Of a stretch of 11,889 nt of DNA, positions 1-9,169 are shown in pieces. This DNA is from a bacterium. Lineage in GTDB: Bacteria; T1Sed10-126. A program made the position numbers and the translations under genes. The stretch's first letter is position 1; each line of letters opens with the position of its first letter. The stretch is from assembly GCA_003557545.1 (NCBI GenBank), contig PWOD01000160.1, positions 1-11,889 on the forward strand, given 5' to 3'. A model generated the notes under the pieces. That model ran no database searches. It was not told the DNA's origin and saw only the letters and a program-made list of their open reading frames with translations.

Positions 1-538
1 AGTTTTTAAGATGGAGCAGATCGGTCATTGTTTGGGTAGGGTGATCGATATCACACTGTAGATTGACGATGGCCGGTCTGTGTCCTAATACATCCTTTTG
101 GAAACCTTCATCCAGAGCTTCGCCGACTTCTCGCATATACTGGTGGCCCAGCCCGATATATTTGTCGTGGCGTATTCCAATAACCTCACTCAGAAAGGAG
201 ATCATGTTAGAGGTTTCTCGTACAGTTTCCCCGTGGGCCACCTGTGATTTTGCCTCTTCAAACTCATTTACTGATAGACCCAGTAGATTAGCTGCTGACG
301 CGAAGGAAAAGCGTGTCCGTGTAGATTGATCTTTAAAGATTGAGATGGCCAGCCCTGTTTGAAAAAATCGGGTGGAAATATTATTCCGGTAAAGATCACG
401 TAGAATCTCAGCAATCATTAAAATTGCCTTGAGATCATCGAGAGATTTGTCCGAAGTTAATAGAAAATCTTCTCTGTAGGTGTGAAAATTAAGTTTTCTT
501 AATTCCTCCAGATCTTTCAAAAAGCTTTTAATGCTCAT
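1..538 (-). CDS. ygeW: YgeW-type knotted carbamoyltransferase, partial (C-terminus off the window)
   Basis: The reverse strand reads open from an ATG at 538 to the window edge, giving the first 179 residues. The carbamoyl-phosphate motif STRTRF, the segments AHGETVRET and NMISF, and the stretch around CDIDHPTQ are all present and match, in order, what I recall of E. coli YgeW. That protein is a member of the aspartate/ornithine carbamoyltransferase superfamily of about 400 residues, so roughly 55% is missing. A strong AGGAGG sits 9 nt before the ATG. It is the last visible gene of the minus-strand unit, 78 nt after the ygeY-like gene. YgeW proteins accompany YgeX and YgeY in anaerobes, in clusters linked to anaerobic purine/urate breakdown; the substrate here is not shown by the sequence. 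There is no stop or frameshift in the visible part. Confidence 0.93.
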   Translation of the reverse strand, partial: MSIKSFLKDLEELRKLNFHTYREDFLLTSDKSLDDLKAILMIAEILRDLYRNNISTRFFQTGLAISIFKDQSTRTRFSFASAANLLGLSVNEFEEAKSQVAHGETVRETSNMISFLSEVIGIRHDKYIGLGHQYMREVGEALDEGFQKDVLGHRPAIVNLQCDIDHPTQTMTDLLHLKN

Positions 539-616
539 TTCAAATCGCCTCCTAAAAATTGTTGTTTAATACTTATTTTTCCTCAAAAAACTCTGGTTTA
601 ATCTGACAGTTTAAAA

Positions 617-1825
617 TTACTTTTCGGTGTAAATCATCGGGAACAGTGCGTACCATGCGGCGGCTTTAACCAGGTGATCGACCGGAACCTGTTCATTAAT
701 CGTATGGGCGTAGATTTCATTGGCCGGGCCGAATCCAATGGTCGGAACTTCGTGAATGCCCATTGTTGCGATCCCGTTGGTCGAGAAGGTCCATTTGTCA
801 ACAAATGGTTCCTGAGAAAATAGTTCGCGGTACGTGGTTACCGCTTTCTGGCAAAGTGGTGATTCTTCCGGTAACACCCATACCGGATAATATTTTTCGG
901 TTGGATAGGTGAATCCAGTATAACTGGGTCGCTCATACTGTAAAATTTCGATTTTGACTACATCAGGGTCGACTCCGGATTTTTTTACTGCATCCTCAAC
1001 TTCAGCCAGAGCCGACTGTTTGGTTTCACCCGCTGTAAGGCGCCGGTCCAGATGGATATATGCACCGTCCGGCACCGCGCAGAGTGACGGTGTCTGGCAT
1101 TCTCCATAGCTGACGGTGACAGTCCCTTTGCCCAGGAAGGGATCTGATTTTAGTCGGTCGTTAAGTTTTTCTATCTCCAGAGCAATTCTAGAGATTCGAT
1201 AGATCGCGTTTTCTCCCCGTTCAGGAGCCGAACCGTGACAGGATACACCGCGGACATGAATACCAAACTCCATACGACCTCTCTGCCCCCGGTAAATGTT
1301 TAGATTGGTTGGCTCTGTGATTACTACACAATCTGGCTGAATATCGGTTTCGGAAAGAATATATTGCCAGCAGAGTCCATCACAATCCTCTTCCTGGACA
1401 GACCCTACTACATAGAGGGTATAGTCATTTTCCAGCCCTAGATCTTTGATTATTTTCCCCGCATAGACCATGCTGGCCATCCCCGCCAGCTGGTCGCTGG
1501 CTCCTCGACCAAAGATAATATTATCTTCAAACTTACCCTCAAATGGATCCCACTCCCACTCATCAATATTTCCGGTGTCAACGGTATCAATATGGGCATC
1601 CATTGCAATGACAGTCTTACCATCGCCGATTTTGCCGATTATGTTACCCATTTCATCGGTTTTAACAGTGTCAAAACCGGTTTTTTTCATCTCTTCGGCA
1701 ATTCTTTTAATAACCCCTTCTTCTTCGCAGCTGACTCCAGGTATTCGGATGAGATCACGCAGAAAATCTGTCATCTCTTCTGAATAGTTCTCCGCCTGTT
1801 GCAAAATTTCTTCCGGTAAATTCAT
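617..1825 (-). CDS. ygeY: YgeY-family M20 metallohydrolase (selenium metabolism-linked hydrolase family)
   Basis: A 402-residue protein of the M20 di-zinc peptidase/deacylase family, matching the usual YgeY length. Visible active-site elements are the MDAHIDT motif (His78, Asp80), GASDQ (Asp111, bridging metal ligand), EED (Glu146 as general base and Glu147 as ligand), EPT (Glu171) and AHTINEQV near the C-terminus (His374). All expected metal ligands are intact and there is no signal peptide, so it is a cytoplasmic hydrolase of a small amide or ureido compound. The frame extends to a GTG at 1834, but AGAGGAG is only 2 nt from that codon and 11 nt from the ATG at 1825, so I choose 1825. It lies 145 nt after the serine-kinase-like gene and 78 nt before ygeW. 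YgeY with YgeW is a recognised pairing; the exact substrate is unknown here. Confidence 0.92.
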   Translation of the reverse strand: MNLPEEILQQAENYSEEMTDFLRDLIRIPGVSCEEEGVIKRIAEEMKKTGFDTVKTDEMGNIIGKIGDGKTVIAMDAHIDTVDTGNIDEWEWDPFEGKFEDNIIFGRGASDQLAGMASMVYAGKIIKDLGLENDYTLYVVGSVQEEDCDGLCWQYILSETDIQPDCVVITEPTNLNIYRGQRGRMEFGIHVRGVSCHGSAPERGENAIYRISRIALEIEKLNDRLKSDPFLGKGTVTVSYGECQTPSLCAVPDGAYIHLDRRLTAGETKQSALAEVEDAVKKSGVDPDVVKIEILQYERPSYTGFTYPTEKYYPVWVLPEESPLCQKAVTTYRELFSQEPFVDKWTFSTNGIATMGIHEVPTIGFGPANEIYAHTINEQVPVDHLVKAAAWYALFPMIYTEK

Positions 1826-1970
1826 CTTGTTCACATCTCCTCTGTAAAGTTGTTTTCTACTCTGTCCCCGGGGATAAGTCCGGTAGTTTAAACAATCGAC
1901 ATAAACCCCCTGTTAGATTTCTGAGCGCGGCTGACCACACTGTTCAGTTGTTGGGCGAACTTACTTCGGT

Positions 1971-2390
1971 TTAACGAAGGAGCTCATCAAGCGGGTAATC
2001 CACACGGCTTTCGGGGATATGCAATATATGTTTTGTGCTCTTGGGAGGAAAGACCTGATTGCTCAAGCCCATCTCCAGAACTGCCTGTTTGGTTAACGGT
2101 TCGATCGGGCAGTTGGGTCGCGGTTTGACGCTAATAATTTCAGGATTAAAATAGTCAACCCGGATAACCGGAGCCCATTTAACCTTTAAAGATATTAAAG
2201 CTGCCGCACGATGATGGCCATCAAGAATAACATTGTGTTGGTTATCAATTAGTATTGGATAATCAACACAGCCGCTGGTTTTAATCTGTTCTACCAGCTG
2301 CTGACGGCGCTGTTGGTAGATCTGTTCGTGCTCTTTCAGCGCGGCTGGATCTACAAGCTCAATGTCCAGCGTTATATCGTTCAGGTTCAT
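1971..2390 (-). CDS. Small ParB-fold protein, probable free-serine kinase (SerK/SbnI-like)
   Basis: A 139-residue protein with the ParB/sulfiredoxin-like nucleotide-binding fold. The motifs in order are: His-Glu at 21-22 before a basic helix, PILID at 45-49, DGHHR at 57-61, and FPPKSTKH at 114-121. The His-Glu followed by D-G-x-H-R is the arrangement of SbnI (catalytic Glu20) and archaeal SerK, which phosphorylate free L-serine to O-phosphoserine; Glu22 would be the catalytic residue. Those relatives are about 240-255 residues, so this is a compact single-domain form. The DNA-binding domain of a partition ParB is absent. The frame can be extended upstream to a TTG at 2405, but no Shine-Dalgarno supports it; the ATG at 2390 has a weak GGA 10 nt upstream. 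It lies between a PLP lyase-like gene and ygeY, which fits a metabolic role. The kinase assignment is inference from motifs. Confidence 0.72.
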   Translation of the reverse strand: MNLNDITLDIELVDPAALKEHEQIYQQRRQQLVEQIKTSGCVDYPILIDNQHNVILDGHHRAAALISLKVKWAPVIRVDYFNPEIISVKPRPNCPIEPLTKQAVLEMGLSNQVFPPKSTKHILHIPESRVDYPLDELLR

Positions 2391-2483
2391 TTTTTTAGTT
2401 TCCAAATCAATCGCCCCGTTGTTTATCGTTATAAGCAGACCTCATTGATTAATCTTTAATAATGCTTCCTTCTTAGACAGAGT

Positions 2484-2515
2484 CGACCGGGGATTAAATA
2501 ATCCCGACCCGGTCG
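2484..2515 (-). other. Hairpin spanning the stop codon of the PLP-enzyme gene
   Basis: CGACCGGG at 2484-2491 is the exact reverse complement of CCCGGTCG at 2508-2515, and the interior holds a second short complementarity (GATTA/TAATC). In the minus-strand transcript this forms an 8-bp GC-rich stem that contains the TAA stop of the upstream gene. No U-tract follows, so it is not a standard intrinsic terminator. A role in partial attenuation, RNA processing or mRNA end protection between the first two genes is possible but unproven. Confidence 0.6.
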
Positions 2516-3966
2516 TTAAACTGATTGATCAACTGGTCAATATCTTCTGCCTGGCCGTGGATTTCATCCCAGAAAGCAGGCCATCGCTGCCACTGTTCGT
2601 CCAGCTCCTCAAGCTGTTTCTCCTGCTGTTCTATCCAGGTGAAATATTTAAGATTGTGAATCCGGCGCTTGTCTTCATGCTGGAGGTCAAGAATATTGGC
2701 AGTGTTTTGATCCAGAATAGACTTTTCATAGGCCCGGGCCGCATCCTGCTCGGTATATTCTACCTTGTTTTGACGCATCTCTTCAAGGCGTGAGTTGTAT
2801 AGTTCCATCGAATCGGTCCAGACTGTCATCAGGGCATCGTTTTCAGTCAGTTCATACTTTTTGGCGTATTTGATACAGCCAAGAACATTGGCTATTCCAG
2901 AAATACCCATCAGATCAAGGTTATCAACAACCTGCGGATCAACCCCTCGTTCTTTGAGGAAATCTCGCCCGACCGGTTCGTTGAAAAATCGGACCAGTCG
3001 CATGCAGTCCTCGTCATCAATCGCCACAATAGTATCTGTATTGCGGACGTTATGAACCCAGGGGACATGTTTGTCGCCAATACCTTCGATTCGGTGACTG
3101 CCATAACCGTTTTCGAGGAGGGTGGGACATTGTAGTGCTTCACCTACTGCCAGTTTGCTGCCCGGAAATAAATCTTTCATTCGGTCGCCACTGGCCAGAG
3201 TTCCGGAAGAGCCAGAGGTGAGGATCGTTGCCGCCAGCTGCTGGCCTTCTTTTAGTTCGGCGTTGAGAACTTCGGCCATGGCACCCCCGGTGACCTGATA
3301 ATGCCATAGGTGGTTACCGTATTCATCAAATTGATTAAAAATAACAATTTTATCTTTATATGCTGGATCTTTCCGTAACTCCCAGCATTTGTCGAAAATA
3401 GCTTTAATGTCAGCTTCACCACCGGGAGTTGTGAAAACTTCACCGGCCACCTTGGAAAGCCATTCAAACCGTTCGGGACTCATTTCTTCAGGTAGTATCG
3501 CAATCGAATCACAGCCCAGCAGTGCAGCGTCGTAAGCCCCACCTCTGCAGTAGTTTCCGGTTGATGGCCAGACGGCTATCTGGTTTACCGGATCAAACTG
3601 TCCGGTGGTCAAACGGGGAGCCAGACAGCCAAAGGTTGCTCCTACCTTGTGGGCACCGGTGGGAAACCATTTCCCCACAACACAGAAAATACGGGCCTTT
3701 ACTCCAGTTAATTCAGAGGGTAGTTCCACATAGTTGACATCACCATATAACCCTCCGTCAGGATTGGGTTCGTTCTTCCAGGTGATTCTGAACAGGTTCC
3801 GCGGATGGATCTCCCATAGCCCAATATCGTTTAGCTCCTGTTTGATACTGTCAGGTATTAGTTCGGGATTTTTCATCTGCTCGAAAGTTGGAATGACAAT
3901 ATTCCTCTCCCGTGCCACCTCGATTGTCTGTTGTAGCTGTTTGTCATTGATTGTCAAATCAATCAT
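2494..3966 (-). CDS. Fold-type II PLP-dependent enzyme of uncharacterised family (cysteine synthase/threonine dehydratase superfamily)
   Basis: A 490-residue protein. Visible PLP-site elements are TGAHKVGAT with the probable Schiff-base lysine Lys107, the asparagine-loop STGNY at 136-140, and the phosphate-binding SGSSGT at 251-256. The core is that of beta-replacement/beta-elimination enzymes, but the first 80 and last 100 residues are additions relative to cysteine synthase (about 310 residues); the C-terminal part is Gln/Glu-rich and probably helical. It is not YgeX (diaminopropionate ammonia-lyase, about 400 residues, different lysine context), although it sits where ygeX sits in other ygeW/ygeY clusters. 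The frame extends to TTG at 3987, but AAAGGAG lies inside that extension, 11 nt before the ATG at 3966, which I choose. It is the first gene of the minus-strand unit. The reaction is unknown; O-phosphoserine is a reasonable substrate guess because of the neighbouring serine-kinase-like gene. Confidence 0.85.
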   Translation of the reverse strand: MIDLTINDKQLQQTIEVARERNIVIPTFEQMKNPELIPDSIKQELNDIGLWEIHPRNLFRITWKNEPNPDGGLYGDVNYVELPSELTGVKARIFCVVGKWFPTGAHKVGATFGCLAPRLTTGQFDPVNQIAVWPSTGNYCRGGAYDAALLGCDSIAILPEEMSPERFEWLSKVAGEVFTTPGGEADIKAIFDKCWELRKDPAYKDKIVIFNQFDEYGNHLWHYQVTGGAMAEVLNAELKEGQQLAATILTSGSSGTLASGDRMKDLFPGSKLAVGEALQCPTLLENGYGSHRIEGIGDKHVPWVHNVRNTDTIVAIDDEDCMRLVRFFNEPVGRDFLKERGVDPQVVDNLDLMGISGIANVLGCIKYAKKYELTENDALMTVWTDSMELYNSRLEEMRQNKVEYTEQDAARAYEKSILDQNTANILDLQHEDKRRIHNLKYFTWIEQQEKQLEELDEQWQRWPAFWDEIHGQAEDIDQLINQFNDRVGII

Positions 3967-4236: not shown

Positions 4237-4260
4237 TATTCCACCCTGCAAGGTGGAATA
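4237..4260. promoter_or_regulatory. Operator-like dyad at the minus-strand transcription start
   Basis: TATTCCACC at 4237-4245 and GGTGGAATA at 4252-4260 are a perfect 9-bp inverted repeat with a 6-nt spacer. It begins 3 nt downstream of the minus-strand -10 box and covers the predicted start site, a classic repressor position. No T-run follows on either strand, so it is unlikely to be a terminator. The binding protein is not identified. Confidence 0.55.
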
Positions 4261-4262
4261 TG

Positions 4263-4291
4263 AAGATATCCACAAAAGCTCCTTTTGTCAA
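4263..4291 (-). promoter_or_regulatory. Sigma-A-type promoter for the PLP/serK-like/ygeY/ygeW unit
   Basis: Read on the minus strand, a perfect -35 TTGACA (4291-4286) is followed after 17 nt by TATCTT (4268-4263), which matches 4 of 6 positions of the -10 consensus. A second inverted repeat, ACAAAAG-CTC-CTTTTGT at 4272-4288, overlaps the -35 box and spacer. Transcription would start near 4256, giving a leader of about 290 nt before the ATG at 3966. Confidence 0.55.
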
Positions 4292-8632: not shown

Positions 8633-9000
8633 GTCGGTGCGGATGTGAGCAGTCGCCCGGTCGGAGATTTAACCGGGAGGAAAGTCCGGACTCCATTGTA
8701 AGGGTGTCCCGGGAAATCCGGGAGGTCTATCAGCTGGATAGACCCGGCCAGTGCCACAGAGACCATACTACCGAGTTTTCGGGAAAGGTGAAAAGTAAGC
8801 GGATGTGCCGCTTGTTTGATCTGGCGCTACTGCTTGGGGCTATGTCGCAAGGCATATTTCTGGTAAACCCCACCTGGAGCAAGACCAAATAGTTTCGACG
8901 TCTCGACGTAGGGCGGGTAGGTCGCTAGAGGCCTGTTGCAAAATAGGTCCCAGATAAATGGCTGCCTTTGAACAGAATCCGGCTTACCATCTGCACCGAC
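8633..9000 (+). ncRNA. rnpB: RNase P RNA (bacterial, type A-like)
   Basis: The universally conserved elements appear in order: GAGGAAAGTCCGGACTCC after the first stems (around 8678), CAGTGCCACAGAGACCA, GGTGAAAAGTAAG, GGAGCAAGACCAAATAG (around 8875), GGGCGGGTAGG, AGATAAATG, and ACAGAATCCGGCTTA near the 3' end (about 8972-8986). The ends pair: GTCGGTGCGGATG at 8633 is complementary to CATCTGCACCGAC ending at 9000, apart from one wobble, forming helix P1. Flanking AT-rich bases could extend the helix, so the ends are good to about 10 nt. The GGGTAGG element is like the L15 of type A RNAs. The RNA is the catalytic subunit that trims tRNA 5' leaders. I found no strong separate promoter; T-runs at 9038-9065 may help end transcription. 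Confidence 0.97.
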
Positions 9001-9169
9001 TTTATATTTTGTCCCCCGGCAACTCGGATTTTGTAAGTTTTTTTCTTTTTAAACCAATTTTTTTAGTTATTGTTTACTCTTCGAAAATGACTGTATGTTC
9101 AGATTTAGAGAGAGTTTTACAGCTTTCCTCAAATTCATCAAAAAAATCGTCTAAAAACCAAAACTCTTC

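Follow-up and report, generated by a model that had tools for sequence, protein, structure and literature searches.

The window analyzed here, a stretch of 11,889 nucleotides from a bacterium of the lineage T1Sed10-126 (GenBank assembly GCA_003557545.1, contig PWOD01000160.1), opens with four genes on the minus strand that encode, in reading order, a pyridoxal 5'-phosphate (PLP)-dependent enzyme, a small protein similar to the free serine kinase SerK, the hydrolase YgeY and the carbamoyltransferase YgeW (Table 1). Because the window begins at the contig edge (base 1 of contig C28 in the 239-contig assembly, G000), YgeW is cut. The ATG of the PLP enzyme gene is preceded by AAAGGAG and coincides with the beginning of the family alignment, at an identical MIDLT, whereas the gene for the SerK-like protein might start at either 2393 or 2405. 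Successive genes are separated by 100, 142 and 78 bp, and gaps of this size make a single transcript plausible. A promoter-like site on the same strand is located about 300 nt ahead of the first gene. Immediately downstream of this site, at window positions 4240-4262, there is an inverted repeat, ATTCCACC-CTGCAA-GGTGGAAT, which is not conserved in the sister genome described below and is a possible operator or hairpin. No riboswitch or other RNA was detected upstream of the unit at the Rfam gathering thresholds.

Table 1. Features of the four-gene unit in the window and of the loci compared with it.
Feature	Location	Strand	Evidence or content
PLP enzyme, 490 amino acids	window 2494..3966	minus	Cysteine-synthase fold, conserved N- and C-terminal extensions; not YgeX
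Minimal SerK-like protein, 140 amino acids	window 1971..2393	minus	Matches to the SerK ends, structure model, PDB matches
YgeY, M20 family hydrolase	window 617..1834	minus	NCBIfam TIGR03526, 585.7 bits (cut-off 321.5)
YgeW, knotted carbamoyltransferase, first 179 codons	window 2..538	minus	TIGR03316 / NF005538, 252-261 bits
Promoter-like site, TTGACA-17 nt-TATCTT	window 4263..4291	minus	10 of 12 consensus matches
Second cluster	L138:13489-18902 and L139:9502-14811		Conserved in both genomes of the phylum
Sister-subfamily cluster	L143:599-9494		YgfK, hydantoinase, SsnA-like, second PALP protein
Deltaproteobacterial loci	L026:152-6785 and L043:1033-11461		TRAP transporters, Lrp-type regulator, EutA-like gene (ectoine utilisation / racemase family)
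DUF364/DUF4213 block	L005, L006, L012, L019, L021, L024, L028, L040		Often an SsnA-like gene after the PLP enzyme gene

The host phylum is barely sampled, and comparison within it covers two genomes, that of the window and that of a sister from a different genus of the same family (G001). The sister has the four genes in the identical order (contig C81), with a full-length YgeW of 402 amino acids, and the PLP enzymes of the two genomes share 79% identity. The sister unit ends at a MazG-like gene in the opposite orientation; on the other side of the unit, in the window and in the sister alike, lie divergent genes for an Rrf2 family regulator and NifS. The promoter-like site falls within an upstream block that is kept in the sister. 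The four-gene arrangement exceeds chance, and the one-strand unit with a single promoter region that the initial annotation had described is borne out by the coordinates, by the recurrence of the gene order and by the conserved upstream block.

Sequence comparison makes the assignments of YgeY and YgeW firm. With a score at about half of the full-length cut-off, the truncated YgeW performs as half a protein should; the complete sister protein exceeds the cut-offs (595.6 bits for TIGR03316, 627.8 bits for NF005538) and joins, with support of 100/100 in the tree, the true YgeW of a canonical cluster. These two enzymes belong to what was known as the anaerobic ureido/diaminopropionate pathway, which was solved only in 2025 and appears in the literature as reductive urate degradation (PMC12507026, PMC12990295). 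In this pathway, 2,3-diureidopropionate loses one ureido group to phosphorolysis by YgeW and the other to hydrolysis by YgeY, and the resulting 2,3-diaminopropionate is converted to pyruvate and ammonia by YgeX, 2,3-diaminopropionate ammonia-lyase (PMC12507026), with the order of ureido cleavage being disputed (PMC12990295). The carbamoyl phosphate released by YgeW feeds carbamate kinase and thus ATP formation, according to the published work.

Other genes of this pathway are encoded elsewhere in the two genomes. SsnA scores 526 bits in the window genome and 511 bits in the sister (cut-off 455.5), and in the sister it adjoins an 850-amino acid reductase with a GltD-like N-terminal half and a PreA-like C-terminal half, a fused PreT/PreA-like protein that matches the YgfK model only in part and is a candidate yanthine reductase (YgfK or UacX). 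YgeX-like genes are found apart from the unit, with 493 bits in the sister and split over two contig ends in the window genome (cut-off 532), and each genome has three homologues of xanthine dehydrogenase (XDH), candidates for the XdhD-type molybdenum enzyme of the pathway. Both genomes also share a second cluster, with two carbamoyltransferases, carbamate kinase, a ThrC-like PLP enzyme and ornithine carbamoyltransferase (OTC). In the tree, the two carbamoyltransferases of this cluster sit in two separate, well-supported clades together with enzymes from other phyla, whose loci encode the PLP enzyme as well and, in many cases, carbamate kinase. Given YgeW, YgeY, SsnA, the YgeX-like and XDH homologues and the carbamate kinase cluster, it is very probable that the window organism possesses the reductive urate pathway, with its genes spread over several loci. 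Compared with the reference cluster (ygeW, ygeY, ygeX, ssnA, ygfK, hyuA, xdhD, yqeA; PMC12507026), the window genome shares YgeW, YgeY, SsnA, carbamate kinase and YgeX-like genes but has them scattered, with YgeW and YgeY joined to the PLP enzyme and the SerK-like protein, and where YgfK would be expected next to SsnA, the sister has a PreT/PreA-like reductase. One XDH cluster of the window genome shares its contig with a gene for a D-aminoacylase-like amidohydrolase (L108:8695-10317), which perhaps shares a broad family with UacY.

The PLP enzyme represents a strongly conserved family. The best NCBIfam match is cysK, at 79 bits, far under the cut-off of 351; the SbnA model gives 33 bits (cut-off 350), and the YgeX model (TIGR03528) gives no match at E<=1e-3, which rules out that the enzyme is YgeX. 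A scan of genome contigs yielded relatives in 80 loci, with 59-65% identity over almost the whole length, from about a dozen phyla in all, among them Chloroflexota, Bipolaricaulota, Atribacterota, Halanaerobiales, WOR-3, Hydrothermota, Neomarinimicrobiota, Spirochaetota, Acidobacteriota, several deltaproteobacterial lineages, Bacteroidales and one archaeon. The mean column identity among 61 sequences of the family is 72%, and the invariant positions include the Schiff-base lysine K107, the carboxylate loop S135-T136-G137-N138, the phosphate loop (G252-S253, G255-T256) and T384-D385-S386, where S386 aligns with the serine of cysteine synthase that is in contact with the pyridine nitrogen. The structure model (predicted local distance difference test score, pLDDT, 89.7) matches cysteine synthases and cystathionine beta-synthases with Z scores of ~31-34 over ~300 residues, and SbnA with Z 31.5; no YgeX chain is among the 50 structural matches listed (VIA-align), which in itself excludes nothing. 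The enzyme thus has the fold and catalytic motifs of cysteine synthases and cystathionine beta-synthases but differs from them in scoring far below the curated cut-offs, in its surroundings of purine genes, and in extending beyond the shared core by about 35 residues at the N-terminus and 75-90 at the C-terminus, many of which are invariant. With YgeX it shares the broad PLP fold and the company of YgeY and YgeW but belongs to the cysteine-synthase branch and has the added terminal regions. The pathway is already known, but this family has no name in NCBIfam, and the papers searched yielded no description of it.

The genomic neighborhoods of the PLP enzyme are far from random. In 53 of the 80 loci, at least one pathway-type gene lies within 10 kb, the most common being a carbamoyltransferase (YgeW or OTC; 32 loci), the XDH molybdenum subunit (22), carbamate kinase (22), an SsnA-like gene (20; a family-level label, since the cluster representative scores best as 8-oxoguanine deaminase) and YgeY (14), to which hydantoinase genes are added in other phyla. 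A crude estimate, with 1-5 copies per 3-Mb genome placed at random, gives a chance expectation of 0.4 to 2 loci per gene. A ThrC-like gene is present in 33 loci, and in Bipolaricaulota and many Chloroflexota the PLP enzyme is accompanied by two carbamoyltransferases and carbamate kinase, with no YgeY nearby. Among the 50 genomes with the PLP enzyme to which the counts apply, YgeY is present in 24 and YgeX in only 4; a single genome (G105) combines the two, so that 23 of the 24 genomes with YgeY have no YgeX. Genome incompleteness may explain part of this absence but not most of it. Pelolinea submarina is an example of a cultured organism that carries the PLP enzyme and has no YgeX. A strict mutual exclusion of the PLP enzyme and YgeX was considered and rejected, given that the window genome, its sister and the 4 genomes above encode both. 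Directly before the PLP enzyme gene, a DUF364/DUF4213 protein, an XdhC-type maturation factor and a small nucleoside triphosphatase-like protein recur. A sister subfamily from a sample of Chloroflexota genomes, with 51% identity to the nearest family member, is represented at L143 next to YgfK above the cut-off, a hydantoinase, an SsnA-like gene and a second, divergent PALP protein; this cluster contrasts with the report that Chloroflexota have no YgfK near SsnA.

The SerK-like protein is a reduced version of its namesake. It has 140 amino acids compared with ~242 in SerK, and the SerK model matches it over two stretches with 72.6 bits (cut-off 380), such that both ends of SerK are aligned and ~105 middle residues (about 98-203 of SerK) are absent. 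It shares the ParB-like fold with SerK and SbnI and retains the HEQ glutamate (E30 in SerK, for which E30A and E30Q mutants exist as PDB entries), the DGHHR motif and the C-terminal segment, with HE and DGHHR invariant among five short homologues. The structure model has a pLDDT of 91.7, from only five sequences, and its top PDB matches are SerK, followed by SbnI. The label 'SerK/SbnI-like' of the initial annotation accordingly holds for the fold and the catalytic motifs but not for the length or the middle part of SerK. ParB-fold proteins bind ATP, CTP or GTP, and one SerK-like protein bound CTP (2025 survey, PMC12704722), so that serine kinase activity is not to be assumed.

The SerK-like protein seldom occurs in genomes with the PLP enzyme. 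A clear short homologue was found in 1 of the 50, away from the PLP enzyme gene and beside genes for an M20 peptidase and for transporters; the archaeal genome encodes a SerK-like protein of full length, and the five remaining SerK matches are weak. It is therefore not generally needed by the PLP enzyme, and a role as a general partner of the latter was rejected. The co-occurrence of the four families in the same order, which the initial annotation proposed to look for, extends to the sister genome. Short SerK-like proteins are also encoded in three loci from another small phylum (L124, L125 and L126); in two of the three, the neighbors are genes for a pyruvoyl-dependent arginine decarboxylase and an arginase-family protein.

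The most plausible interpretation, to which we assign a probability of about one half, is that the unit covers the end of the reductive urate (purine) pathway at which ureido groups are cleaved and diaminopropionate is formed, together with an additional PLP lyase. YgeW would phosphorolyse one ureido group of 2,3-diureidopropionate, passing carbamoyl phosphate to carbamate kinase for ATP formation, and YgeY would hydrolyse the second group to give 2,3-diaminopropionate. The reactions that we infer for the other two proteins are as follows. The PLP enzyme probably acts last in the pathway, as a beta-eliminating lyase whose substrate would be 2,3-diaminopropionate or the corresponding ureido compound; as an alpha,beta-eliminating enzyme of the cysteine-synthase/cystathionine-beta-synthase type, it would convert 3-amino- (or 3-ureido-) alanine, via 2-aminoacrylate, to pyruvate and ammonia. 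A separate YgeX would operate alongside it in the window genome. In most of the other genomes, YgeX would be replaced by this enzyme or by its frequent companion, the ThrC-like PLP enzyme. The SerK-like protein is a lineage-specific addition that probably binds nucleotides. RidA disarms 2-aminoacrylate, and the presence of RidA near a more distant relative of the PLP enzyme in Bosea and of a RidA-like gene near a family member at L043 agrees, as thin evidence, with an aminoacrylate-releasing enzyme. The initial annotation had suggested a variant of the anaerobic ureido/diaminopropionate pathway, and this part of it is supported by the firm assignment of YgeW and YgeY, by SsnA above the cut-off and by the linkage of the PLP enzyme to pathway genes across phyla.

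Several observations weigh against this interpretation. The window genome and its sister both have YgeX-like genes and so show no obvious need for a second lyase; the frequently accompanying ThrC-like enzyme could equally be the stand-in for YgeX; and the fold and motifs of the PLP enzyme, as modeled, would suit beta-replacement as well as elimination. Moreover, 27 of the 80 loci have no pathway gene nearby, several of them on short contigs, and in two deltaproteobacterial loci the neighbors of the PLP enzyme are instead tripartite ATP-independent periplasmic (TRAP) transporters, an Lrp-type regulator and an EutA-like protein.

The division of labor between the two PLP enzymes leads to a different, rather unlikely scenario, in which the ThrC-like enzyme replaces YgeX and the PLP enzyme of the unit catalyzes another step, for example, beta-elimination acting on albizziin (ureido-alanine) or on a single diaminopropionate enantiomer. 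The two enzymes recur together, the ThrC-like gene being present both in the loci counted above and, within the window genome, in its second cluster, and the sister subfamily pairs with a different PALP protein; on the other hand, three loci (L029, L048 and L064) combine the PLP enzyme with YgeY and have no ThrC-like gene nearby, which may lie elsewhere in the genome. The divergent Rrf2 and NifS genes, conserved in both genera, raise the prospect of a route from serine via O-phosphoserine to cysteine, run by the PLP enzyme and the SerK-like protein, that supplies NifS/NifU under a CymR-like regulator. The Rrf2 protein resembles CymR and IscR, and a SerK-CysK route exists in Thermococcus (PMC5120207), but an ordinary CysK-like gene begins elsewhere in the window genome (contig C234), the PLP enzyme family elsewhere accompanies purine genes rather than NifS, and YgeY and YgeW would be left unexplained, all of which makes this option improbable.

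Least credible is the scheme of the initial annotation, whereby the SerK-like protein makes O-phosphoserine, the PLP enzyme swaps the phosphate for a nitrogen nucleophile, yielding beta-substituted alanines, and YgeY and YgeW trim or carbamoylate the product. The SerK fold and motifs, the cysteine-synthase fold with SbnA among the structural matches, and the existence of transcarbamylases that make beta-ureidoalanine from diaminopropionate (PMC4581275) are compatible with it. However, the SerK-like protein and the PLP enzyme are almost never found together, the neighbors of the PLP enzyme genes are catabolic, the SbnA model falls far short of its cut-off, and carbamoylation would be undone by YgeY; because of the rarity of this combination and the missing middle part of SerK, synthesis from O-phosphoserine is left without support.

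Apart from the unit itself, the loci in other phyla tentatively suggest a widespread form of the pathway that dispenses with YgeX in favor of a pair of PLP enzymes, one with the CysK fold and one ThrC-like. In several phyla, YgeY would be replaced as well, by two carbamoyltransferases and carbamate kinase, a combination that, with no YgeY nearby, suggests phosphorolysis of both ureido groups and hence formation of ATP from each. A published neighborhood survey recognized YgeX by the broad PLP family PF00291 only and was therefore unable to separate it from the CysK-fold and ThrC-like families. Should the PLP enzyme and its partner indeed catalyze the final reaction in many phyla of anaerobes, the picture of how anaerobic purine breakdown is distributed outside the gut, what it ends in and how much energy it yields will have to be redrawn, and a strongly conserved enzyme family with no name in NCBIfam gains a testable function.

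In plasmid records, only distant relatives of the PLP enzyme were found, with 38% identity (L140 and L141, on Rhizobium and Bosea plasmids). Both have a TauE/SafE exporter and an M20 peptidase in the vicinity, and the one from Bosea also has RidA and gamma-glutamyltransferase; these relatives are perhaps lyases of sulfur-substituted alanines. Elsewhere in the window, a bacterial RNase P RNA of class A (192 bits, Rfam) is encoded on the plus strand at positions 8635-9002, between mnmA and the mraZ/rsmH/ftsL/murE genes.

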